Shown here piece by piece: positions 29,679 to 42,308 of a stretch of DNA of 47,181 nucleotides. This DNA is from Gemmatimonadaceae bacterium. GTDB lineage: Bacteria; Gemmatimonadota; Gemmatimonadetes; Gemmatimonadales; Gemmatimonadaceae. Under the pieces are notes generated by a model. The model was not told where the DNA came from. It ran no database searches and saw nothing but the letters and a program-made list of their open reading frames with translations. The stretch covers positions 1-47,181 of the forward strand of contig JACCWE010000028.1 in the NCBI GenBank assembly GCA_013697785.1, in the 5' to 3' direction. The translations under genes were made by a program, and so were the position numbers. Numbering within the stretch: position 1 is the stretch's first letter; every line of letters begins with the position of its first letter.

Positions 29679-30233
29679 GTGGACGCTCGGAAATCGACCC
29701 GAGTCATGCACGTTGCGCTCCTCCGCGGCATCAATGTCGGCAAGGCCAAACGCGTCCCGATGGCCGACCTGCGCGCACTCTGCGAATCGCTCGGCTACCG
29801 TGACGTGAAGACGCTGCTCAACAGCGGCAATGTGGTCTTCGCCGCCGCGCGCGCCGACGCCAGCGCGGCCGCCAAAATCCAGAAGGGGATCGCGGAGCAG
29901 ATCGGCGTTTCCTGCCGCGTAGTCGTGCTCACCCGCGACGAGCTCGACACAGTCATCGCGGAAAATCCATTCAGCGAGAGCGAGACGAATCCCTCGCGAT
30001 TCCTCGTCACCGTGCTCGCGACGGACGCCGACCGCGCGCGCATCGATGCGCTGACGAAGGAGGAGTGGGGCGCCGAGCGGATCGGCGCGGGTACGCACGC
30101 GGCCTATCTCTGGTGCGCGAACGGGATTCTCGAGAGCCGCATCGTCACGGCGATCTCGAAGCAGCTCGGCGACTCCGCCACGAGTCGCAACTGGGCGACG
30201 ATGAAGAAGCTTCAGGCGCTCGCGAGCGCCTGA
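29679..30233 (+). CDS. DUF1697 family protein
   Basis: The 184-residue protein has the family hallmarks HVALLRGINVGKAKRVPMADL and LLNSGNVVF, and ends with TSRNWATMKKLQALA. The family is widespread, small and soluble, and has no established function. GTG 29679 is favoured because GGAGAG lies 5 nt upstream; ATG 29706 directly before HVALLRG is an alternative with no ribosome site. The last 22 nt overlap the convergent M20 hydrolase gene. Confidence 0.85.
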   Translation: MDARKSTRVMHVALLRGINVGKAKRVPMADLRALCESLGYRDVKTLLNSGNVVFAAARADASAAAKIQKGIAEQIGVSCRVVVLTRDELDTVIAENPFSESETNPSRFLVTVLATDADRARIDALTKEEWGAERIGAGTHAAYLWCANGILESRIVTAISKQLGDSATSRNWATMKKLQALASA

Positions 30234-31438
30234 GCCGCGAGAGTTTCCGACGCGACTCGCGCACACTCGGCCAGCACCGCCGCGCCAATGAACAGCGCGC
30301 CCTCGGCGGCGTAGTAGCCGGGCGAATGCGCCGCGATCACGCGCCCCCCCGGCTCGCGCGCGCCGATTCGCATGAAGCATCCGGGGATACTCTCCATGTA
30401 CACGGCGAAATCTTCACCGCCCATGTTCGTCGTTCCGAGCGGCACGAGCGCCGCCTCGCCCAGCACGCTGGCGGCAGCGCGGGATGCGATGGCCGCCATG
30501 CGCTCCGGATTGACGATCGGGGGCGTGCCGCCCGAGAGCGTCGTGGTGGCCGTCACACCGTACGCAGCGGCGACGGCACTCACGAGCACCGCGAGCTCAC
30601 GCGTGAGCAGCGTGCGCGCCGCGACCGTCGTCGCGCGTATCGTCCCCGACATCTTCGCGCGGTCGGGGATGATGTTCGATGCCGTCCCCGCACTGATCGT
30701 GCCGACGGTGACCACGCCGGGCTGCGCGGGATCGAGACGGCGCGACACGAGCGTCTGCAGCGCAGTGACGATCGCCGCAGCAGCGACGATCGGATCCGCT
30801 GACTCGTGCGGGCGAGCGCCGTGCGAGCCGGAGCCGAAGATCTCGATGTCGAAGGTATCCGTGGACGCGGCGAGCTCTCCCGCCTGCGCCACGATCTGCC
30901 CCACCTCGAAGCGCCGGTCGACGTGCCCGCCGAAGATCGCCCTCACGTTCGCGAGCGCACCGCTGGCGACGATCGCGCGCGCACCGTCGCCCACTTCCTC
31001 GGCCGGCTGGAACACGACGAGTACGTCGCCATGCGCCGGTGCGGCCGCGAGGAGCATCGCGGCGCCCACCGCCCACGACGCGTGAATGTCGTGACCGCAC
31101 GCGTGCATGACGCCCGCATTCGTCGATGCGAACGAGAGTCCGGTGCTCTCGGTGATCGGGAGCGCGTCGATGTCACCTCGCAGCGCGACGACCGGCGCCG
31201 AGCGATCTTCGCCCGCAATGCGAGCGATGAGTCCCGTGCCCGCCACGCGAGCGACGTCCGTGATGCCGAACGATGCGAGCGCCGCCACGAGCTTCTCGAC
31301 CGTCGCCTTCTCCTGCCACGACAGCTCGGGGTGCATGTGCAGGTCGCGCCTTAGCTCGACGAGACGCCGCGCCTCGTCGCGCGAGAAGCGGCCGGCGACT
31401 CCTGCCGGAACCGCGACGTCGTCGATCGTGGTCGTCAT
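30212..31438 (-). CDS. M20D family amidohydrolase, probable N-succinyl/N-acyl amino acid hydrolase
   Basis: The 408-residue enzyme has the M20 metal motifs: LRGDIDALPI (86-95), MHACGHDIHAS (111-121) and the catalytic pair Glu147-Glu148 in FQPAEEVGDG, followed by a lid domain and EDFAVYMESIPG near the C-terminus. Close homologues hydrolyse N-acyl amino acids such as hippurate and acetyl or succinyl derivatives. It is the last gene of the dacB-GNAT-racemase-M20 operon and begins 7 nt after the racemase gene. I therefore infer that it removes succinate from N-succinyl-L-amino acids. No signal peptide is visible. The sequence alone would allow other acyl groups. Confidence 0.88.
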   Translation of the reverse strand: MTTTIDDVAVPAGVAGRFSRDEARRLVELRRDLHMHPELSWQEKATVEKLVAALASFGITDVARVAGTGLIARIAGEDRSAPVVALRGDIDALPITESTGLSFASTNAGVMHACGHDIHASWAVGAAMLLAAAPAHGDVLVVFQPAEEVGDGARAIVASGALANVRAIFGGHVDRRFEVGQIVAQAGELAASTDTFDIEIFGSGSHGARPHESADPIVAAAAIVTALQTLVSRRLDPAQPGVVTVGTISAGTASNIIPDRAKMSGTIRATTVAARTLLTRELAVLVSAVAAAYGVTATTTLSGGTPPIVNPERMAAIASRAAASVLGEAALVPLGTTNMGGEDFAVYMESIPGCFMRIGAREPGGRVIAAHSPGYYAAEGALFIGAAVLAECARVASETLAAQALASA

Positions 31439-31445
31439 GCTGCGA

Positions 31446-32570
31446 TCACTTCGCGCCGATCTTTTGCGTGCGCACCGTCAGCGCATCCACACGGTCGAGG
31501 TCGACCGTGATGCCGATTCCCGGCTCATCGCGCGGCACTTTCACGATTCCATCGTCGCTCATGGTCCACTCCGGCGTCACGACATCCTGTTCCCAATAGC
31601 GCGCGCTCGGGCTTAGATCGCCCGCGATGCTGAAGCCGGGAAGCGACGCGAGGGCGACATTGTACGCGCGCCCGACTCCGCTCTCGAGCATCCCGCCGCA
31701 CCAGACGGGGATCTTGTTCTTCACACAGAGATCGTGGATCGCGCGCGATTGCGCAAATCCTCCCACGCGCCCCGGCTTGATGTTGATGATGCGACCGGCG
31801 CCGAGCGAGATCATATCCTCGGCCTTCTCGACATCGGTGATCGATTCATCGAGGCAGATCGGCGTCTTGAGCACGCGCTGCAGCTGCGCGTGGCGAATGA
31901 TGTCGTCGAACGCGAGCGGCTGCTCGATCATGATGAGATCGAGATCGTCGAGCTGCTTCAGGCGATCGGTGTCGGCCAGGGTGTATGCGTTGTTGGCATC
32001 CGCCATGAGCGGCGCCTTGGGATACGCGCTCCGTACCGCGCGCACGAACTCGACATCGGAGCCGGGCTGGATCTTCAGCTTGATCTTGCGATAGTGCTCG
32101 CCGATCGCGCGTCCTGCGCGCTCGACGAGCGCCTCGGGAGTGGCCTGGATGCCGAGCGAGATCCCGGTCTCGATCCCCTCCCGCGTACCGCCGAGCAGCT
32201 TCGAGAGGGAGATCTTTTCGCGCACCGCGGTGAGTCCCCACATCCCCATCTCGATTGCGGCCTTCGCCATGTTGTGGCCGCGAAAGTTCTTCTCGAGTAC
32301 GGGGTCGACCTCGGATGGATGTGCGAAGTCGACGCCGAGCACGCGGGGAGCCACGTACTGGGTGATCGAGAACCAGGCGGTGTCGATCGTCTCCGACGTG
32401 TAGTTCGGCTCCTCGCCGGCCACGCACTCGCTCCACGTCTCGGCGCCATCGGCGTCGCGGAGATGGAGGAGCATGATGCGGCGCTCGACGCAGAGCCCCG
32501 AGGAGATGCGGAATGGCTCCTTGAGCGGAAGGCGGATCTCGCGGAGTTCGATCTGTTCGAGCCGGGTCAT
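31446..32570 (-). CDS. Enolase-superfamily N-succinylamino acid racemase (MenC-type NSAR/OSBS)
   Basis: This 374-residue member of the muconate-lactonizing subgroup interconverts N-succinyl-D- and L-amino acids by proton abstraction. The KxK motif is Lys164-Leu-Lys166, the metal ligands are Asp191 (MADANNAY), Glu216 (MIEQPL) and Asp241 (CLDES), and the second base is Lys265 in NIKPGRVGG. The same family also makes o-succinylbenzoate for menaquinone (MenC), and the two activities cannot be told apart by motif. Here there are no men genes. The gene overlaps a GNAT gene by ATGA and is followed by an M20 hydrolase, which is the arrangement described for the D- to L-amino acid succinylation pathway. 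That context favours racemase. Confidence 0.85.
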   Translation of the reverse strand: MTRLEQIELREIRLPLKEPFRISSGLCVERRIMLLHLRDADGAETWSECVAGEEPNYTSETIDTAWFSITQYVAPRVLGVDFAHPSEVDPVLEKNFRGHNMAKAAIEMGMWGLTAVREKISLSKLLGGTREGIETGISLGIQATPEALVERAGRAIGEHYRKIKLKIQPGSDVEFVRAVRSAYPKAPLMADANNAYTLADTDRLKQLDDLDLIMIEQPLAFDDIIRHAQLQRVLKTPICLDESITDVEKAEDMISLGAGRIINIKPGRVGGFAQSRAIHDLCVKNKIPVWCGGMLESGVGRAYNVALASLPGFSIAGDLSPSARYWEQDVVTPEWTMSDDGIVKVPRDEPGIGITVDLDRVDALTVRTQKIGAK

Positions 32571-33397
32571 CGGGTGCCGTTGCGTGAGAGAATGTAGAAG
32601 TAGCGGTCTTCGGGTACGAGGTGCGAGAAGCCTGTGATGCAATAACCTCGTTCCATGTAATGAGTGAGCACGTGCCGCGTCGATGCTCGCAGGCGAGAGG
32701 CGGCGGACATCCCGCGCGCGATCACCTGCTCGATGTCGGCGGGAACCTCGACGCGAACCATGTCGGCGTCGGGAAGGTCGCCGGATGCATGCGCCGCGTC
32801 GAGATCGTTGACCACGGGGAGATCGCGCCACGCCGGATCTTCCGCGGCCGTGCCGGTGCGGCCGTTCGCGCCGCCCTCGACGGCGAGATCCCACGCGACG
32901 ATGAAGCGATCGGTGCCGATGCCGCCGTGCAGCGCGCTGTGGGTATCGGCGCCGTACATGTCGACGACGTATTCCTTCGGCCGCGCGCCGAGTCGCACGA
33001 TGTTGAGATACGCATTCTTGGCGACGAGTGGATCATACGTCCAGAACATCGTCTCCACGCCGAGGGGAAGAAGAAGCTCGCGTTGATACATCTTGAGCCG
33101 GCGCCCGAGTCCCTTGTTCCGCGCGCTGGAGTGCACGGCCAGGAGATCCGACCAGTGTACGAGCTTTCCGTCGATCACTCCCATCATCCCGAACACGAAG
33201 CCGAGCAGCGCTCCGTCCGCGTCGAAGGCGCCGGCGGTGACACCGCCGATCTTCTGCGTGATGCGAAGCATCGTGGCGGGAACGATCTCGGTGAAGCTCT
33301 CGCCCCAGATCGCGTGCTGCATGCGGACGCATGCGTCGTACTCATCGGTCGTCTCGACCCGGCGAATCGTGATGCCGTCGGCCGACGTGACGCTCAT
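32567..33397 (-). CDS. GNAT-fold acyltransferase, probable D-amino acid N-succinyltransferase
   Basis: The 276-residue protein belongs to the GNAT acyltransferase family usually found beside MenC/NSAR enzymes. The acyl-CoA site is AVHSSARNKGLGRRLKMYQR (about 88-107), with VETMFWTYDPLVAKNAYLN after it. Residues 150-276 form a second domain with DMYGADTHSALHGGIGTDRF. Homologues next to racemase genes were shown to transfer succinyl from succinyl-CoA to D-amino acids. It overlaps dacB upstream and the racemase gene downstream, each by 4 nt, so the three are translated together. The substrate assignment is inferred from this neighbourhood. Confidence 0.8.
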   Translation of the reverse strand: MSVTSADGITIRRVETTDEYDACVRMQHAIWGESFTEIVPATMLRITQKIGGVTAGAFDADGALLGFVFGMMGVIDGKLVHWSDLLAVHSSARNKGLGRRLKMYQRELLLPLGVETMFWTYDPLVAKNAYLNIVRLGARPKEYVVDMYGADTHSALHGGIGTDRFIVAWDLAVEGGANGRTGTAAEDPAWRDLPVVNDLDAAHASGDLPDADMVRVEVPADIEQVIARGMSAASRLRASTRHVLTHYMERGYCITGFSHLVPEDRYFYILSRNGTR

Positions 33398-34986
33398 GGT
33401 CGCGCCTCGTATGCGGCGGCGGCAATCTCGCCGAGCGCCTGGCCGACTACGGCAGTAACCGCGTTGGGCTCGGTGGAGACCGAGACGTTGTTCACGTAGA
33501 TCGCGAAGGCCAAGTGTCGATTGTCCGCCGTCGTGATGTAGCCGGCGAGCCCCTTGCCGGTGATGAGGAGTCGCCGATTGAGCGGATCGTAGACGTCGAA
33601 CGTCCCGGTCTTCGCGAAAACGTGACCGACCGCGGGCGAGTCGGGTTGGATGTTCCAGAGGGTGCCGTCGCGGCCGAGTATCGGGAGCGCGTTGCGAAAG
33701 AGCGCGGAGTCCTTCTGCTGACTCATGTACTTCAGATAGCTCACCATGAATGCGGGGGTGAAGTGCGCGTCGCCGCCGGCTCCGTCGGCCTGCTGGGCGC
33801 CGGTGAGATCGAGGCCGGCCTTGGTGAGAAAGTCGTGCTCGAGATCGAAGCCGGTTTTCGAGCTGTCGTCGGGTGCGAGCACCGCCTTGAGAGCGCGTGG
33901 TGTCATGCTCGCGTGAAGATTCTGACTGACCTTGAGCGTGATCCTCACGTCTTCGCTGAGCGCGTGCGACACGTGCTCTGCAACGACACGATCGGGAGTG
34001 TACGAGGAACGCAGCGCCTTGAAGTCGGGGGCAGGTGAAGCGCGCTGCGGGCGCCCCGCGATCGCGACGCCCCGCTCCTGCAGCGCCTCGGTGAAGGTTA
34101 CCTCGGCGAAGCGCGCCGGATCCGCGACGCGATAGGCGTTGAGGATCGGCGCCGCGCCCGCGGGGGTAGTGCCGACGATGGTGACCGTGCGGAGACCGGT
34201 GGCGTTGGCGGTGTCGATGGCGATGTCGACGCTGGCCTTCGAGCCGGGCGCGCCGGTGGTCACCTTGTTCACGATCCGAAGATACGATGTGACGGGGCTG
34301 GCGACGATCGATGCGGCGCTGCCAACGGCACCGCCCGGACCGATCATGAGGTCGACGAGGTTGTCGTTGACGACGATGGGGGACATGACGACACCAGTGC
34401 CGAGCTCGCGGTCGCCGGACTGGAAGAGCGTCGCGTCGACGAGCACGCGTCCGGTGATGCGCTTGATGCCGTGGGAAGCGACCTGGGTGGCAAGCTTCCG
34501 GATGATGAGAAGTGGATCGCCGGGCACCGCGCGCGTGTGCTCATCGCCGTCGTACGCGTGATCCTCGTTCTCGAAGGCGAGGGTGCCGTCGGGGCGCACG
34601 CGCGCGGAGAGATTGGGGTCGCCGCTCGCGAGGAGAATGAGATCTCCGTTGAGGGTGCCGGCCTTGTCCACAGTGCCGGTGCGATAGACGCGCGTGTGGA
34701 AGCGGTAGTCGGCGCCCATGAGCTCGAGCGCCGTGCCCTCGGTGAGGAGCTTCGTGGTCGAGCCGGGAACGAAGAGCTTCTCGGCGTTGAGCGTGTAGAT
34801 CGCCTTGCCGGAGTCGAGCGAATAGAACTCGATCCCGAAGAGAGCTCGCTTGAACTCGGGGCGATCGACGACGCGCTGGATGCGCTCGGAAAGCGTCCCG
34901 CCGGACTGCGCCTCGACCGGCGTGACGGCGAAGAGCGCGAGCAGCGCCGCGGCAAAGAGTCGTACGAGGAATCGTAGGCAGCTCAT
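33394..34986 (-). CDS. dacB: D-alanyl-D-alanine carboxypeptidase/endopeptidase, PBP4 class
   Basis: This 530-residue exported penicillin-binding protein has a signal peptide (FLVRLFAAALLALFAVTPVEA) and the three active-site motifs S76TTK79 (FVPGSTTKLL), S354QN356 and K459TG461 (FAKTGTFD). The large insertion between the first and second motifs is normal for class C low-mass PBPs such as DacB. It would trim terminal D-Ala or cleave cross-links of peptidoglycan in the periplasm. ATG 34986 directly precedes the signal peptide; the frame extends to 35070, but that part lies over the divergent promoter. It heads the GNAT-racemase-M20 operon, so released D-Ala could feed that pathway. Confidence 0.92.
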   Translation of the reverse strand: MSCLRFLVRLFAAALLALFAVTPVEAQSGGTLSERIQRVVDRPEFKRALFGIEFYSLDSGKAIYTLNAEKLFVPGSTTKLLTEGTALELMGADYRFHTRVYRTGTVDKAGTLNGDLILLASGDPNLSARVRPDGTLAFENEDHAYDGDEHTRAVPGDPLLIIRKLATQVASHGIKRITGRVLVDATLFQSGDRELGTGVVMSPIVVNDNLVDLMIGPGGAVGSAASIVASPVTSYLRIVNKVTTGAPGSKASVDIAIDTANATGLRTVTIVGTTPAGAAPILNAYRVADPARFAEVTFTEALQERGVAIAGRPQRASPAPDFKALRSSYTPDRVVAEHVSHALSEDVRITLKVSQNLHASMTPRALKAVLAPDDSSKTGFDLEHDFLTKAGLDLTGAQQADGAGGDAHFTPAFMVSYLKYMSQQKDSALFRNALPILGRDGTLWNIQPDSPAVGHVFAKTGTFDVYDPLNRRLLITGKGLAGYITTADNRHLAFAIYVNNVSVSTEPNAVTAVVGQALGEIAAAAYEARP

Positions 34987-35035
34987 GCTGATTTTGTCCG
35001 TTGGAAAAGTGTGACGCGCCCGCGCCCGAGGATAC

Positions 35036-35063
35036 TTGCAGCTGTTTGGTATACCGATATAGT
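35036..35063 (+). promoter_or_regulatory. Promoter of the CPBP protease gene, near-leaderless
   Basis: TTGCAG (35036-35041), a 16-nt spacer and TATAGT (35058-35063) form a good sigma-70 promoter. Transcription would start near 35070, leaving only about three bases before ATG 35073. A small palindrome, GGTATACC, lies in the spacer and could be an operator. Confidence 0.45.
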
Positions 35064-35072
35064 ATGCCAATC

Positions 35073-35900
35073 ATGCCGAATGCCACGCCTCGATTGAAAC
35101 AGGAGCTCGCGACGTATCTGCTCCTCACCCTCGGTCTCAGCTCCATCTTCTACGTCGTCATCGGACGCGCGAAGTCGCTCGGCGCCGGCAACGGGCTTTA
35201 CGTCCCGATGCTCATGTGGTGTCCCGGCATCGCCGCGCTCATCACGCGCCTCATTTTCCAGCGCAATGTTCGCGGCGAGGGCTGGGCGCCGGGCCCGATT
35301 CGCTACCTGCTCGCGGGCTACACGCTTCCGCTCGGCTACGCAGCGTGTGCCTACGCCGCAGTCTGGATCTTCGACTTCGGCGGCGTCGACCTCGGCCGCT
35401 TTCATACGAATCCCATCCGCTTCATCACCGCCTTTCTCGCGATTAACGCGGCCTTCGCCCTCGGCGAAGAGCTCGGCTGGCGCGGCTTTCTCGTCCCGAA
35501 GCTCGCGGAGCACTTCACCTTCGCGCGCACCGCGATCATCAGCGGCATTATCTGGGCAACATGGCACATGCCGCTGATAATCTTCGCGGACTACAACGGC
35601 GGCACGCCCACGCTCTACTCGATTGCGTGTTTCGCGCTGATGGTGGTCGGGATCAGCTTCCCGCTCGCGTGGCTCCGCATCAAGTCGGGCAGTGTCTGGC
35701 CCGCCGTGCTTCTGCACGCGAGTCACAATCTGTTCATCCAGGGTTTCTTCGACGCCGTGACCATCGACACTGGCGTAACCAGGTATCTGCTCAGCGAATT
35801 CGGAGCAGTGTTGGCGATTACAGCCGTGATCACCGGCTTTCTGTACTGGCGCTCCAACCGGCTGCATCCCGCGCTCTCGCCCGCCACGCTACGGCTGTAA
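35073..35900 (+). CDS. CPBP family intramembrane metalloprotease
   Basis: The 275-residue membrane protein has about seven hydrophobic helices. The CPBP signature is complete: E132-E133 and R137 in LGEELGWRGFLVP, His165 in TWHMPL, and HASHN (215-219). Members cleave substrates inside the membrane or modify peptides, and some confer bacteriocin immunity. ATG 35073 is preferred to ATG 35064, because a promoter at 35036-35063 would start transcription just before it. It is divergent from dacB with about 86 nt between. The last 12 nt overlap the minus-strand 48-residue ORF. Confidence 0.88.
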   Translation: MPNATPRLKQELATYLLLTLGLSSIFYVVIGRAKSLGAGNGLYVPMLMWCPGIAALITRLIFQRNVRGEGWAPGPIRYLLAGYTLPLGYAACAYAAVWIFDFGGVDLGRFHTNPIRFITAFLAINAAFALGEELGWRGFLVPKLAEHFTFARTAIISGIIWATWHMPLIIFADYNGGTPTLYSIACFALMVVGISFPLAWLRIKSGSVWPAVLLHASHNLFIQGFFDAVTIDTGVTRYLLSEFGAVLAITAVITGFLYWRSNRLHPALSPATLRL

Positions 35901-36035
35901 CCCGGGCTCGTACGACGTCACGAACTCGAGGAAGCGCGATAGCTCCACCATGTCGCGCGCCATGAACCGAACCGAGTGCGAGGATACACGTGCGACGTTC
36001 GGCAGATAGGCGATGATGCGTGAGCGGTTCCGCAT
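35889..36035 (-). CDS. Small 48-residue protein, translationally coupled
   Basis: ATG 36035 overlaps the stop of the serine hydrolase gene as TAATG, and the frame runs to a TAG at 35889-35891. The peptide begins MRNRSRIIAYLPNVARVSS and continues with SVRFMARDMVELSRFLEFV; it looks amphipathic and helical. Third codon positions are strongly G/C, as in real genes here. It could be the end of a longer operon or the remnant of a lost gene. The last 3 nt-scale overlap is with the CPBP gene on the other strand. Family and function are unknown. Confidence 0.5.
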   Translation of the reverse strand: MRNRSRIIAYLPNVARVSSHSVRFMARDMVELSRFLEFVTSYEPGLQP

Positions 36036-37582
36036 TATTTCTCTCCGCTTTCCGATCGTTTGAACGTTTCGCCGAATGCCTGCACTGCTGCCACGTGCCC
36101 CGCGCCATCGGGAACGAACGTCAGCTCGGTGATTCCCTCGAGCTCGTCCTCCTTCACGCTGCTGAAGCTTTCGTACGATCCGTGTTTGAGCTCACCGATG
36201 TCGAAGTTGACGAAGCGTGCGCGAAGGGCGCCCCCGGCGAGCGTCACCTGGATCGGCCCGTAGGTCGAGTCGACGTAGCTCCCGGTGTATCGGTCGAGCG
36301 GCAGCGACTGCTCGGCGCCGCCCGTCTTTGCTTTCGACGCCGCGGCTGCGACGGCCGCGTGGGCCGATGCGTGCAGCGAGTCGAACAGCGACTTCACATC
36401 GGCGCTCCAGTCGCGACGGTGCGCGGATGGTGCGCTTCGATACATGTCGAAGACCTGGTACATCAACGCGTGGCGGAGTTCCGCATGATCGAGATTCGCG
36501 AGGACGTACACGCCGACGTGGCGCTCCGGGAGCAGCCCGATGATTGCGCTCATACCGTCGATGCTCCCCGTGTGCATCCAGACGGTCTCGCCGTGGAAGT
36601 CCGAAACGAACCAGCCGAGGGCGTAGCTAAAGAAGTTCGGCTTCGAGAGGGAGAGCGCCGGATACTGCGACATCGGCGCGCGCATCTGCGGCGCGACGAT
36701 CTCGTTGAACGTCGCAGCCTTGATGAGCCGGCGATCGCCGACGCGGCCGCTGTCGAGCATGAAGCGCATCCACTTCGACATGTCGGCGACGCTCGACCAC
36801 ACCGATCCCGCCGGCGCGATCGCGTCTGTGGTGCGCAACTTGACGAGGCGCACCGTGTCGCGCACGATGTCGTGCGGGCGCGCCACGTTCGGCTTCCCCG
36901 CGATGCCGGAGACGAGCGGTATCGACTCCGTCATCCCAAGAGGCGCGAAGATGCGCGTGCGGACGAACGTCTCCCACGGCATACCCGAACGCTCCGCCAC
37001 GAGCGCACCGGCGATCCCGTACATCACGTTCTGATATTCCCACTGCGAGCGGAACGACGAGATCGGCTTCACGTAACGCAGCCGCCGCATCATCTCGGCC
37101 GGCGAGTACTGATTTTCCGGATATGCCCAGAGCAAATCGGTTCCCGGCAGCCCGGTGCGATGCGTGAGGAGATCGCGGATGGTGAGCTCGCGCGTCGCGT
37201 ACGCGTCGTAGAGCTGCAGGTCGGGGAAGTAGTCGGTGATACGGTCGTCCCACTTGAGCATCCCCTCGTCCACGAGCATCGCGAGCGAAGCAACGGTCAT
37301 TGCCTTCGTCGTCGACCCGATGGCGAAGCGCGTGTGTTCCGTTGCCGGCGCCGTCTTCCCGAGCTCGAGCACACCGTAGCCCTTCGCGAAGACGAGCGAG
37401 TTGTCCTTCACGATGGCGATCGCGAGCCCGGGAACCCGCCAGTCGTGCGCCGCGCGCGCGACGTACTTGTCGAAGGAAGCGAGGTCGGGAGCCTGCGCCG
37501 AGGCACCTCCAGACGCTATGGCCGCCGCGAGCGCCAGGGCGCCAACTCGCAACCCAACCATATTATAGTAGCGGCTGGTCAT
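36035..37582 (-). CDS. Exported serine hydrolase, beta-lactamase fold (class C/PBP-like)
   Basis: This 515-residue protein has a signal peptide (VGALALAAAIASGGASAQA) and a serine beta-lactamase-like domain. Catalytic motifs are S90TTK93 (FAIGSTTKAM), Y183QN185 (WEYQN) and HTG (WMHTGSIDG). Such enzymes include esterases, D-aminopeptidases and DD-peptidases as well as true class C beta-lactamases. A C-terminal domain of about 100 residues (LDRYTGSYVDSTYGPIQVTL and after) is like the DUF3471-type accessory domain of peptide-active members. The start ATG 37582 overlaps the tricorn stop as ATGA. The operon context of peptidases, a D-aminoacylase and SusCD favours a peptidase role. Confidence 0.88.
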   Translation of the reverse strand: MTSRYYNMVGLRVGALALAAAIASGGASAQAPDLASFDKYVARAAHDWRVPGLAIAIVKDNSLVFAKGYGVLELGKTAPATEHTRFAIGSTTKAMTVASLAMLVDEGMLKWDDRITDYFPDLQLYDAYATRELTIRDLLTHRTGLPGTDLLWAYPENQYSPAEMMRRLRYVKPISSFRSQWEYQNVMYGIAGALVAERSGMPWETFVRTRIFAPLGMTESIPLVSGIAGKPNVARPHDIVRDTVRLVKLRTTDAIAPAGSVWSSVADMSKWMRFMLDSGRVGDRRLIKAATFNEIVAPQMRAPMSQYPALSLSKPNFFSYALGWFVSDFHGETVWMHTGSIDGMSAIIGLLPERHVGVYVLANLDHAELRHALMYQVFDMYRSAPSAHRRDWSADVKSLFDSLHASAHAAVAAAASKAKTGGAEQSLPLDRYTGSYVDSTYGPIQVTLAGGALRARFVNFDIGELKHGSYESFSSVKEDELEGITELTFVPDGAGHVAAVQAFGETFKRSESGEK

Positions 37583-40500
37583 TTGTGCTCCGCTGGTGCA
37601 ATCATTACCCGATCGATCGGCACAGGACGCGGCGTGCGCTGCAGCGGATGCTCCTGCAGCATCTTGAGAGCCTCGGTCACTCCGCGCTCGAGCTGCGCGT
37701 CGTGTCCGCGCGCCATGTCGGCGGGCGTATTCTCGACTTCGATGTCCGGCGCCACGCCCTCGTTTTCGACCGACCACTTGCCGTCGTTGCTATAGAATGC
37801 GAGGTCGGGCGCCGTGATCCCACCGGCGTCGATCGGGGCTGGAACGCCGAGTGTGCCCACGAGCCCGCCCCACGTGCGAGTGCCGACCAGCGGGCCGAGC
37901 TTCGCGACGCGAAAGTAATAGGGAAGCGCGTCGCCTCCGGAGCCCGCTGATTCGTTGATGATCATCACCTTCGGCCCAAAGATGCCGGCCATCGGGGCCG
38001 TGATGGTTTTCCCCGCGCGCTCGGCGAAGTAGCCCATGCGTACTCGGCTGAGCTGCTGCACGACGTAGTCTGCCACCGCGCCACCCTGGTTGTATCGCTC
38101 ATCGATGATGACGCCGTCCTTCTCCTGCTGCGCGAAGAAATATCTGTTGAACGCGGTGAAGCCGGCGCCGGCGGTGTTCGGAAGCCAGACGTAGGCGAGC
38201 CGCCCGCCCGACAGCTTGTCGACGAGCCGGCGATTGTCGTCGATCCATGCCTGCGTGCGAAGCGCTTCGTCGTCCGCGATCGGCGTCACGCCGATCACCC
38301 ACGACCCCTGCGTGCTCGGTGTCGAGCTCACGCGCACGCTCGTCGCCTTGCCGGCCGTGCCCTCGAACATGCTGTAGAGATTCGCCGGCGGTGTGACCGC
38401 GCGACCGTTCACCTCGAGAAGATAGTTGCCTTCGGCAACCTGCACCCCCGGCACATTGAGCGGGGCACGCAGCCGCGGGTTCCAGCTCCCGGCACTGTAG
38501 ATGCGCTGGATGCGATAGCGGCCGCTCTCGGCGGAGAAGTCGGCGCCGAGGAGTCCGACCGAGGTGTGCGCAGTGTCGGGGACATCTCCGAGCCCGTCGA
38601 GATAAGAATGACCCACCGTCAGCTCACCGCCGACTGTCGCTATGAGGTAGGCGAGGTCTGCACGATGCTGCACGTACGGCACGAAGGCGCTGTACTTGTC
38701 GTAGATCGCCTGCCAGTCGTTGCCATGCATCTTCGCATCATAGAAAAACTCGCGCTGAGTGCGCCACGTCTCGCGGTAGATCTCGGCCCACTCCGCGATC
38801 GGATCGACGAGCGTCTCCATGTCATCGATCGCGAGCGCGCCCTCACCCGGCTTCGCCGGCTGCTCCGTCGAGACGATGCTCCAGTGTTCGCCGCTGCTGT
38901 ACATCAGTTTCTTTGAATCCGCCGAGATCATGAACGACGTGATGCCCTCGGCAAACGGCTGCGCTTTCGAGCTGCTCAGCGAAAACTCGAGGAGCTGCAG
39001 CGGCTGCTGACCGGCCTCGCCAGTGCCAGGCGCCTTCGTGTAGAAGAAGGTGCCCGCGCCGCCGGCGACGAGATCGCCGTAGTCGCCCGACGGCACTTCG
39101 AGCGGCACTATCCGACGCTCGATTCCGTCGAAGTCGATTCGCGTGAATGCAGCGCTGTCGACGCGTGGTGGGGTGGCGCGCACGCCAACGGACTTCGAAG
39201 CGGGCCGCTTCGGAGCTGGCGGCGCCTCCTGCGCCAAGGCGTGAGCGTCTACCACTCGTGGCGCTTCATTGTTGAGCGTTGGCAGGAGAGGCGATGGCTC
39301 GCTCGCCGAGAGTACGGCGAGATAGATGTTCCGCCTCACCACGTGCTCCATCGAGCTCATGTCGAGCCATCCGGTGCCGAGGCCGTAGTTCGTGCTCGCG
39401 AGGAAGTAGAGATACTTCCCGCTCGCATCGAACGCCGGCGTAATTGCATCGGCCATACCGTCGGTAACCTGATGGCCCTTCGCCGCGGACATCGAAAACA
39501 CGAAGATCGCACGCAGATGGCTGTCGAGCGACTTCGAGTACGTCACCCATCGCGAGTCAGGAGACCACGATGCATCGAAGCCGCGCCCCGGATCGTCGTA
39601 GCTGTCCGTGTCGATCTTCGTGAAGCGTCCGCTCGCCACGTCGACGGTCCAGAGCTGTGCTTCGGTATCGCGAAAGAGCATGTGCTGCGCGTCGGGCGAC
39701 CAGACCGGGCGCGCGAAGTAGGCGTGCGACGGGAGCGCGATCGCGCGGGGCTTCGAATCGCCGCTCTGATCGCCGATCATCAACTGATATTCTCCGCCCG
39801 CATCCGAGAGCCAGGCGATGTGACTCCCGTCGGGCGACCAGGCAGGATCGCGATCGTGCACTCCGGAGCTCTGCGTGAGATTGCGATAGCTGCCGTCCTT
39901 GGCGGCGACGGTGAAGATGTCGCCACGCGCCTCCAACGCCGCGCGCACGCCGGTTGGCGAAAGGGAAGCTCCGGCGATCAACGACGCGACACGCTTCATC
40001 TGCGGCCGCGCCCAGGGGAAATCACCCGTCGCGACGATGTCGAGCTGCCGCGAAGCTCCCGTCTTGGTGTCGAGCAGGTGCACGTAGCCCGCCTGCTCGT
40101 ACGCGATCGCATCCGCGCTGGCCGAGGCGGACATGATGTCGAAGTCGCGATGATGAGTCAGCTGCGTGAGCTGCTTGGTGTCGAGATTCTGCGCGTAGAG
40201 ATTGTTCGTGCCGTCGCGATCGGAGAGGAAGTACAGCGAGTTGCCGATCCACATTGGATCGGTGTCGTTGCTGTCGTTCCAGGGAAGCTTCTCCTCGGCC
40301 AGGCTCGCGAGGTTAATGATGCGAATGGGTTGCACGCGCCCGCCACGGTAGCGACGCCACTGACTGCTTTGGCTCTCTCCCCACATCGATGCGAACAGCG
40401 AAACGGAGAGAGGTTGATAGGCAACGCGCTTGCCGTCGGCGGAAAACGATCCCGTGAATGCGCGAGGTATCGGCAGGAGCTCGGGCATTCCTCCCTCCTG

Positions 40501-40947
40501 CGCAATCGTCCAGAGACGGAAAAACGAATTCGCTCCTGGAGTGGGAAGCGTGCCGCGGCTCGAGCCGAATACCACGCGTCGCCCATCCGGTGTCCAGCCG
40601 CGCACGTAATCGGCGCCCGGATGATAGGTCAGTCGCTTCGCCTCGCCTCCTGCGACCGGCACGATGAAGACGTCGGTGTTTCCGGCAATCGTTGCGGAGT
40701 AGGCGAGATGCGATCCGTCGGGCGAGAAGAACGGATCCGATTCCGCGGAGGGAGTGCTCGTGAGACGGCGGGCGGTTCCGCCGGCGCGCGGCACTATCCA
40801 CAGGTCGCCGCCGTACTCGAAGGCGACCATGTCCTTGCTCACTGCAGGGCGGCGCAGGAACCGCGTTCCCTGCCCCGCCGCGGTTGCGGTCGGGGCGAAG
40901 AGGAGAAGAAGTCCGAGGAGTGATCGTCTCAAGTGCGTGTGTGTCAT
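37579..40947 (-). CDS. Tricorn-like S41 protease with N-terminal beta-propellers
   Basis: This 1122-residue exported protease has a signal peptide (SLLGLLLLFAPTATAAG). Two WD40/TolB-like propellers follow, with repeats such as DPFFSPDGSHLAYS and DPAWSPDGSHIAWLS. Next are a helical domain (WAEIYRETWRTQREFFYD), a PDZ-like domain near NVPGVQVAEGNYLLEVNGR, and an S41 catalytic domain. The nucleophile is about Ser1003 in NESAGSGGDALPYYF, and VIIDERYNQGG supplies the conserved Asp. Tricorn relatives cleave oligopeptides. The ATG follows a GAGGG site. It lies 68 nt after SusD in the same operon, so it probably processes peptides taken up by SusCD. Confidence 0.93.
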   Translation of the reverse strand: MTHTHLRRSLLGLLLLFAPTATAAGQGTRFLRRPAVSKDMVAFEYGGDLWIVPRAGGTARRLTSTPSAESDPFFSPDGSHLAYSATIAGNTDVFIVPVAGGEAKRLTYHPGADYVRGWTPDGRRVVFGSSRGTLPTPGANSFFRLWTIAQEGGMPELLPIPRAFTGSFSADGKRVAYQPLSVSLFASMWGESQSSQWRRYRGGRVQPIRIINLASLAEEKLPWNDSNDTDPMWIGNSLYFLSDRDGTNNLYAQNLDTKQLTQLTHHRDFDIMSASASADAIAYEQAGYVHLLDTKTGASRQLDIVATGDFPWARPQMKRVASLIAGASLSPTGVRAALEARGDIFTVAAKDGSYRNLTQSSGVHDRDPAWSPDGSHIAWLSDAGGEYQLMIGDQSGDSKPRAIALPSHAYFARPVWSPDAQHMLFRDTEAQLWTVDVASGRFTKIDTDSYDDPGRGFDASWSPDSRWVTYSKSLDSHLRAIFVFSMSAAKGHQVTDGMADAITPAFDASGKYLYFLASTNYGLGTGWLDMSSMEHVVRRNIYLAVLSASEPSPLLPTLNNEAPRVVDAHALAQEAPPAPKRPASKSVGVRATPPRVDSAAFTRIDFDGIERRIVPLEVPSGDYGDLVAGGAGTFFYTKAPGTGEAGQQPLQLLEFSLSSSKAQPFAEGITSFMISADSKKLMYSSGEHWSIVSTEQPAKPGEGALAIDDMETLVDPIAEWAEIYRETWRTQREFFYDAKMHGNDWQAIYDKYSAFVPYVQHRADLAYLIATVGGELTVGHSYLDGLGDVPDTAHTSVGLLGADFSAESGRYRIQRIYSAGSWNPRLRAPLNVPGVQVAEGNYLLEVNGRAVTPPANLYSMFEGTAGKATSVRVSSTPSTQGSWVIGVTPIADDEALRTQAWIDDNRRLVDKLSGGRLAYVWLPNTAGAGFTAFNRYFFAQQEKDGVIIDERYNQGGAVADYVVQQLSRVRMGYFAERAGKTITAPMAGIFGPKVMIINESAGSGGDALPYYFRVAKLGPLVGTRTWGGLVGTLGVPAPIDAGGITAPDLAFYSNDGKWSVENEGVAPDIEVENTPADMARGHDAQLERGVTEALKMLQEHPLQRTPRPVPIDRVMIAPAEHK

Positions 40948-41015
40948 GCCAACCACCCTCGGATCTGAAATTGTTTGTTCGATCGATGTTGCAGTAGCGC
41001 TGCGTATCGCGGTGT

Positions 41016-42308
41016 TCAGATGTTCGGATTGTTGATCCGCTCGATATCGGGAAGCGGGAAGCATGTCTGCGTCCCATAGGTGCCACCCGATCCGTACGGC
41101 GAGCCGGCCACCGGTGTGAAGGGGAGGTTGTAGCGGCGAAGATCACCGAGACGATGTCCTTCGAGGAAGAACTCGCGCTTGCGCTCCTCGACGATCTGCG
41201 CGAGCACCGCTGGGGCCGTGGGGCTCGACGGAGCATACACCGAGTTGTAGCCGGCTCGAACGTGAAGATCGTTGATGATGAGAATCGCGCCCGGAAGATT
41301 TCCGGTCGCTACATCGTTCTCGGCGATGATCAGCTGCGCTTCGGACCACTTGGCTATCGTGATGGGCGCGGTCGAGGTCGCAGCCTTGTCGGGATATGCC
41401 ACGACGGTGAAGCCGTCAGTGGCTGTCTGACCGGAGCTCGTATACGCGACACGCGGATCGTGCTGCGTGTCGTAGATGTTCTGGAACGACGTGTCCACCG
41501 ATGAAAAGAACGACGTCGTCGAGCTCCAGAGTGCATTCTGGCGTCGTGTGTTGACGGCATCCGATGATGTCTGCGCGATGAAGCCCACTGGAACGAGTTG
41601 CGCATCCGCCGCGGCGCCAGCGAGATCGCCGGCGTCCAGCTTCGCTCGCGCTCGTCCGAGCAGCGCGAAGCTCAGAGTGTTGGCGTCTTCAGCGCGCGTC
41701 GATGCCTCGACCGCAGTGTCGAAACGCGTGATGGCGAGCGCGAAGAGTTGCGCCGGCGTGAGCTCCGGACCGAGGTTGATCGCCGCGGAGCACATGCTCT
41801 CTCCCAGCAGCACGATGCTGTAGCCACCGTAGATCGAAGCCGTCGCGATCAGCTTCGACCGGTTCGGCACCTGCGCATCCGTCCACCCTTCGAGCGCCGC
41901 GACCGCCGTGTCGGCCGATGCGCGCGCGACCGACAGTGGCGTGTAGATCCCGGGAATCTGCACGAGCACGCAATCGGTTGTTCCGTACACGCCATTGGAG
42001 GGAAGATTTCTCGAGTCGTACTGGAAATCATCCGTTCGCGCGATCGCGTTCGACAGCTCGTCCGTGAACAGGGCGGTTCCAAGCGAATAACGTCCGAAGG
42101 CGCACTCGAAGTCCGCGCCGGCACCGTTGACGATGAGCTGCGCATTCGCCGGCACGAAGACGGTACTTCCGCCCAGCTGACTCGGGTCTTCCTGCTTGAG
42201 GCTCGTGAGATCCTTGCAGCCGGCCGCCGCGAAGGTCAAACACAACGCCGAAATCGCGAGCCGCGCTGCTGTCGCGCCGCGTACGCGCATCAGTATGGAT
42301 TGCTTCAT
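41016..42308 (-). CDS. SusD/RagB-like outer membrane nutrient-binding lipoprotein
   Basis: The protein of 430 residues has a lipoprotein signal ending LTFAAAGC (Cys31) and a mostly helical SusD/RagB fold. The ending is typical: EERKREFFLEGHRLGDLRR, CFPLPDIERINNPNI. SusD forms the lid on the SusC channel and captures ligands; RagB-like members bind peptides. It begins 39 nt after the SusC gene stops, and ATG 42308 is chosen in preference to ATG 42344, because it places the positive n-region directly before the hydrophobic stretch. The neighbouring proteases suggest peptide ligands. Confidence 0.92.
   Translation of the reverse strand: MKQSILMRVRGATAARLAISALCLTFAAAGCKDLTSLKQEDPSQLGGSTVFVPANAQLIVNGAGADFECAFGRYSLGTALFTDELSNAIARTDDFQYDSRNLPSNGVYGTTDCVLVQIPGIYTPLSVARASADTAVAALEGWTDAQVPNRSKLIATASIYGGYSIVLLGESMCSAAINLGPELTPAQLFALAITRFDTAVEASTRAEDANTLSFALLGRARAKLDAGDLAGAAADAQLVPVGFIAQTSSDAVNTRRQNALWSSTTSFFSSVDTSFQNIYDTQHDPRVAYTSSGQTATDGFTVVAYPDKAATSTAPITIAKWSEAQLIIAENDVATGNLPGAILIINDLHVRAGYNSVYAPSSPTAPAVLAQIVEERKREFFLEGHRLGDLRRYNLPFTPVAGSPYGSGGTYGTQTCFPLPDIERINNPNI

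Follow-up and report, generated by a model that had tools for sequence, protein, structure and literature searches.

A dacB-led cluster of N-succinyl amino acid inversion genes in Gemmatimonadaceae, and its proposed link to salvage of peptidoglycan D-amino acids

The window, a 47,181-nucleotide stretch of DNA from a soil-type bacterium of the family Gemmatimonadaceae, contains a minus-strand cluster of four genes at 30212-34986. The features of this cluster are collected in Table 1. The positions of the genes, their strand, the two ATGA overlaps and the 7-nt gap all agree with the first-pass annotation of this DNA. The leading gene, dacB, starts at the ATG at 34986, and its product opens with what reads as a signal peptide. 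The four genes are tightly packed on one strand and would form one transcript; a search for a sigma-70-like promoter before dacB, however, found none.

Table 1. Features of the dacB cluster and its upstream region (window coordinates)
Feature	Position	Strand	Basis or remark
Palindrome of 23 bp, TGGTATACCGATATAGTATGCCA, predicted GntR/FCD operator	35047-35069		About 60 bp upstream of dacB
dacB-like PBP4 (S13 DD-carboxypeptidase/endopeptidase)	33394-34986	minus	Pfam, TIGR00666, motifs; operon gene 1
ATGA overlap, dacB stop/GNAT start	33394-33397	minus	
GNAT N-acyltransferase	32567-33397	minus	Sub-threshold Pfam, AlphaFold model, PDB folds, NSAR pairing
ATGA overlap, GNAT stop/NSAR start	32567-32570	minus	
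NSAR/OSBS subfamily enzyme, enolase superfamily	31446-32570	minus	TIGR01928, PDB relatives, conserved residues
7-nt gap, NSAR/M20	31439-31445		
M20 amidohydrolase	30212-31438	minus	TIGR01891, Peptidase_M20

Three of the four products are placed in their families by profile matches above the cut-off. DacB matches Pfam Peptidase_S13 at 5e-63 and the PBP4 profile TIGR00666 at 169 bits (cut-off 108), and its catalytic motifs PGSTTK, SQN and KTG are all intact. It therefore combines the S13 domain, the SxxK/SxN/KTG signature and a predicted signal peptide, as a PBP4 does. The enolase-superfamily protein scores 346 bits against TIGR01928 (cut-off 201) and contains both the N- and C-terminal MR_MLE domains of Pfam. 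Its closest relatives in the PDB are the N-acylamino acid racemases 2zc8 and 1r0m, and alignment with these two shows that KLK, DAN, EQP, DES and NIKPGR are kept, so that the lysine pair, the metal ligands and the KPxR arginine after the second lysine are retained. The protein belongs to the NSAR/OSBS subfamily, and racemisation of N-succinyl amino acids is its predicted reaction. The last gene product matches TIGR01891 at 332 bits (cut-off 154) as well as Peptidase_M20, and is a predicted N-succinyl-L-amino acid desuccinylase.

The product of the second gene stays below the curated Pfam cut-offs for Acetyltransf_7 and Acetyltransf_1 (18.1 bits for a cut-off of 27 and 16.5 for one of 20.7, E 0.003-0.01), and searches of Pfam, NCBIfam and PDB sequences returned no match over the cut-off. 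Fold prediction was therefore used. The AlphaFold model has a pLDDT of 91, its N-terminal part matches GNAT structures in the PDB with TM scores by target of up to about 0.8, and the sequence carries RNKGLG, a motif of the R/QxxGxG CoA-binding type. The assignment to the GNAT family thus rests on a modelled fold and a motif rather than on a Pfam profile, and the protein would act as a succinyl-CoA:D-amino acid N-succinyltransferase.

The pairing of GNAT with NSAR goes beyond chance. A survey took in some 120 loci, nearly every one of which has the two genes side by side, often with M20 next. The pairing is almost constant both in the 60 loci read out and in 80 named loci of other genomes, among them Acidobacteriota, KSB1 and Ignavibacteria. 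GNAT itself is present in 143 of 249 Gemmatimonadota genomes. As a set, GNAT-NSAR(-M20) corresponds to an irreversible D-to-L pathway that is already known and is widespread in Gemmatimonadota and in phyla near it, and the earlier assignment of the three genes to it holds. Most of these loci have no dacB alongside. DacB proteins of the window's clade occur in about 20 of the 249 genomes, usually elsewhere in the genome than the trio, and only the window genome and a single genus mate (G251, loci L100 and L123) were seen to have dacB, GNAT, NSAR and M20 in this order on one strand. In four further genomes (G232, G110, G261 and the AG12 genome, locus L143) dacB adjoins GNAT divergently. The first-pass annotation had asked how widely the four-gene order is spread; it proves to be rare, and the genus mate rules out that it is unique to one genome. 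A gene cluster that appeared to recur beside dacB (f33; L100, L054 and L091) turned out to be an open reading frame antisense to a GntR gene.

Upstream of dacB lies a palindrome with the consensus TGGYATAC-N7-GTATRCCA, of the GntR/FCD type. It was first spotted by eye, post hoc, in L100 and the window; the tests that followed covered the complete genome, with the reversed pattern as control, and loci that had played no part in its discovery. The copy before dacB is the sole match without mismatches in the 3.8-Mb genome, and the reversed pattern gives none. The next meaningful match has 2 mismatches and belongs to contig C14, where it occupies the spacer that separates the genes of a GntR/FCD regulator and an S12 hydrolase; a match on contig C114, also with 2 mismatches, is probably due to chance. 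Among the loci, a palindrome scoring at least 12/16 lies upstream of GNAT in 17 of 69, compared with 0.4% of shuffles, and upstream of NSAR in 1 of 60 and of M20 in 0 of 41. Loci new to the analysis repeat the pattern (8/60 before GNAT against 0.7% of shuffles, and 0/50 before NSAR). A scan of 151 genomes yielded 16 sites and none with the control: seven at GNAT, three of them in dacB/GNAT spacers, four at S12 genes and one in a GntR/permease spacer. The divergent dacB/GNAT spacers of L035, L036, L203 and L143 contain the palindrome. The element thus stands before the member genes in a genome that also encodes a GntR/FCD protein, the pattern expected of a regulon. A second GntR/FCD relative in the same genome (G000:C18:13670-14344, L221), 40% identical to the C14 regulator, might also bind the palindrome.

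The second locus, on C14, brings together a fusion of S12 and VanX-type domains, a further S12 hydrolase and the GntR/FCD regulator, together with GNAT2, a paralogue of the GNAT, and an APC amino acid permease. By Pfam, the fusion joins a Beta-lactamase domain to a C-terminal D-Ala-D-Ala dipeptidase of the VanX type; its gene lies at L073 1750-4308 and probably begins with a signal peptide. Of the 249 Gemmatimonadota genomes, some 76 have VanX homologues of this clade, and the long open frames in which many of them sit suggest the same S12 fusion. In 7 genomes VanX is no more than 10 kb away from GNAT, where chance would give 0.36 (about 20 times chance, P about 1e-7). Related genomes are taken as independent in this statistic and in the phyletic counts, so that significance is overstated. 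Genomes with a DacB of the window's clade carry GNAT in 18 of 20 cases and VanX in 17 of 20, in genus g9 a dacB of this clade stands directly beside S12-VanX, and the association of VanX, GNAT and DacB is seen again across several families.

Comparison with the closest relatives shows how dacB may have come to lead the cluster. The genus mate G250 lacks dacB at this place: GNAT adjoins the CPBP gene there, separated from it by the palindrome. In the window dacB is placed between palindrome and GNAT. The simplest reading of these two arrangements is that dacB entered behind a pre-existing GNAT promoter/operator. In G251 it is the interval from dacB to GNAT, and not the region before dacB, that holds the best palindrome, so the arrangement is not fixed even inside the genus. 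On the DacB tree, the window and G251 proteins group together and the divergent group stands together elsewhere, so that the adjacent group needs two changes. The dacB-GNAT association may thus have arisen more than once, and the tree is also compatible with a single origin.

Other genes flank these loci. In the window, the CPBP (Rce1-like) intramembrane protease gene lies at 35001-35900 on the plus strand and starts at the palindrome. Beyond this divergent gene, upstream of dacB, come an S12 beta-lactamase-type hydrolase with a DUF3471 domain (36035-37777, minus) and a large TolB-propeller protein (37579-41064, minus), which shows weak CPAF similarity in its C-terminal part and looks like a tricorn-type protease. 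Amidohydro_3 proteins, which their Pfam family would make D-aminoacylase-like, turn up repeatedly close to the trio and to the GNAT/GntR locus (L103 3899-6058 and 13 other genomes).

These elements are probably parts of a regulated salvage system for peptidoglycan D-amino acids, mainly D-Ala. Exported DD-peptidases, namely DacB from this operon and the S12 hydrolase and S12-VanX fusion from the second locus, would cut D-Ala from stem peptides and D-Ala-D-Ala. The APC permease of the second locus would import the free D-amino acid, GNAT would succinylate it with succinyl-CoA, NSAR would turn the resulting N-succinyl-D form into its N-succinyl-L counterpart, and M20 would free the L-amino acid, a release that would render the route irreversible. 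The inversion chemistry is established for homologues of GNAT, NSAR and M20, and is carried over to these proteins by analogy. The GntR/FCD regulator would bind the palindrome before dacB and so place both loci under common control. A more specific version of this model is put forward tentatively, at close to an even chance: an undescribed Gemmatimonadota regulon in which the GntR/FCD protein responds to a D-amino acid or to D-Ala-D-Ala by inducing both the exported DD-peptidases (PBP4, S12 and S12-VanX) and N-succinyl inversion, making cell-wall D-Ala a dedicated nutrient and the physiological source of substrate for NSAR. Two observations count against so narrow a focus on D-Ala. The NSAR assays consulted (PMC8142540) used N-acyl forms of Phe, Phg and Met, which are bulkier than Ala, and did not include Ala, and the window genome has an alanine racemase with which D-Ala could already be converted.

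The name of TIGR01928, o-succinylbenzoate synthase, raises the question of whether the enolase is instead the MenC of menaquinone synthesis, its place in the cluster being incidental. The NSAR/OSBS subfamily is catalytically promiscuous, which would allow it. This role is nonetheless highly improbable and was rejected, because the genome offers another route: futalosine MqnA/D-type genes are present in 21 of 21 close genomes, the window genome with its two MqnA/D-family genes included, and MenD is above the cut-off in none of the 21. With menaquinone made through futalosine the enolase is not needed as MenC, and it argues in the same direction that GNAT is always its partner and that M20 often comes next. 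The concern that the enzyme might serve only as an OSBS in a genome lacking other menaquinone genes is settled by the same finding. The literature agrees, Gemmatimonadetes having been scored for futalosine genes there too (PMC3914697). A broader challenge concerns dacB itself. The trio could serve general salvage or detoxification of D-amino acids with a broad substrate range, dacB being a passenger behind the GNAT promoter with an ordinary role in the cell wall. That the majority of trios lack dacB fits this account, as do the G250 arrangement, from which dacB looks inserted, and the generic peptidases and transporters among other trio neighbours. Against it, dacB of the same clade stands beside GNAT in the other orientation with the palindrome in the spacer (genus g47, L143) and beside S12-VanX in genus g9; the two changes on the DacB tree, with an association that may have arisen repeatedly, also weigh against it. 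We consider a passenger dacB rather unlikely.

A third alternative changes the source of the D-amino acids and keeps the enzymes. Peptidoglycan scavenged from other bacteria could be that source, in place of the cell's own recycled wall. As this is one version of the salvage model, the two share their probability in part; it is a real possibility, if somewhat below even. The predicted signal peptides of the S12 and S12-VanX enzymes suit it, and so do the TonB/SusD genes, the S9 and S15 peptidases and the permeases that recur near the trio. PBP4, on the other hand, is normally periplasmic and acts on the cell's own wall, and the present data fit own and foreign peptidoglycan alike. Consumption of free D-amino acids has been reported for soil bacteria (PMC3960212), which again favours scavenging.

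Regulated salvage of peptidoglycan D-amino acids thus remains the preferred reading, with a division between its older and newer parts. The trio pathway is the known part; the new part suggested here is dacB as lead gene, together with the palindrome that links it to D-Ala enzymes and a permease. The link from dacB to the pathway, offered as novel in the first-pass annotation, gains from the shared palindrome, the VanX/S12 linkage and the recurrent dacB-GNAT adjacency, and loses as a general four-gene operon, since that order is rare and most trios are without dacB. A search of mainly open-access literature turned up no account of this system. For the NSAR pathway, whose chemistry is known, the proposed regulon would supply a cellular source of D-amino acids (peptidoglycan D-Ala), the enzymes of release, an importer, a regulator and an operator. 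If it is true, PBP4- and VanX-type enzymes take a part in nutrition across a widespread phylum of soil bacteria, with a bearing on D-amino acid recycling in soil and sediment.

A comparison with known systems shows familiar enzymes in a new setting. The closest is the NSAR/OSBS-GNAT-M20 pathway of Geobacillus kaustophilus, reportedly described by Sakai et al. in 2006 as an irreversible D-to-L conversion. There too, genes of these three enzyme families adjoin one another in one operon, and the chemistry expected is the same. In contrast, the window operon is headed by a PBP4 and is connected through its palindrome with S12, S12-VanX and permease genes, and its GNAT is a long form below the Pfam cut-offs. 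The G. kaustophilus NSAR and L-succinylase are also treated in PMC7431475. The DgcN-DgcA pathway for D-Glu, of which dgcN is mentioned in PMC12363236, likewise acylates a D-amino acid and then inverts it with an enolase-superfamily racemase. It differs in using acetyl rather than succinyl groups and in being specific for D-Glu, and the window enolase scores only 104 bits where the DgcA cut-off is 400. On the side of release, E. coli uses DdpX, a VanX-type D-Ala-D-Ala dipeptidase, in starvation. The two systems share a VanX-type M15 peptidase and the treatment of cell-wall D-Ala-D-Ala as a nutrient, but here the peptidase is part of a putatively exported S12-VanX fusion, apparently co-regulated with an inversion pathway and not with D-amino acid oxidation. 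Finally, the window DacB has the domain and the SxxK, SxN and KTG motifs of other PBP4/DacB (S13) proteins, and is set apart from them by forming a clade of its own with a narrow distribution, linked to D-amino acid salvage by regulation and by gene position.
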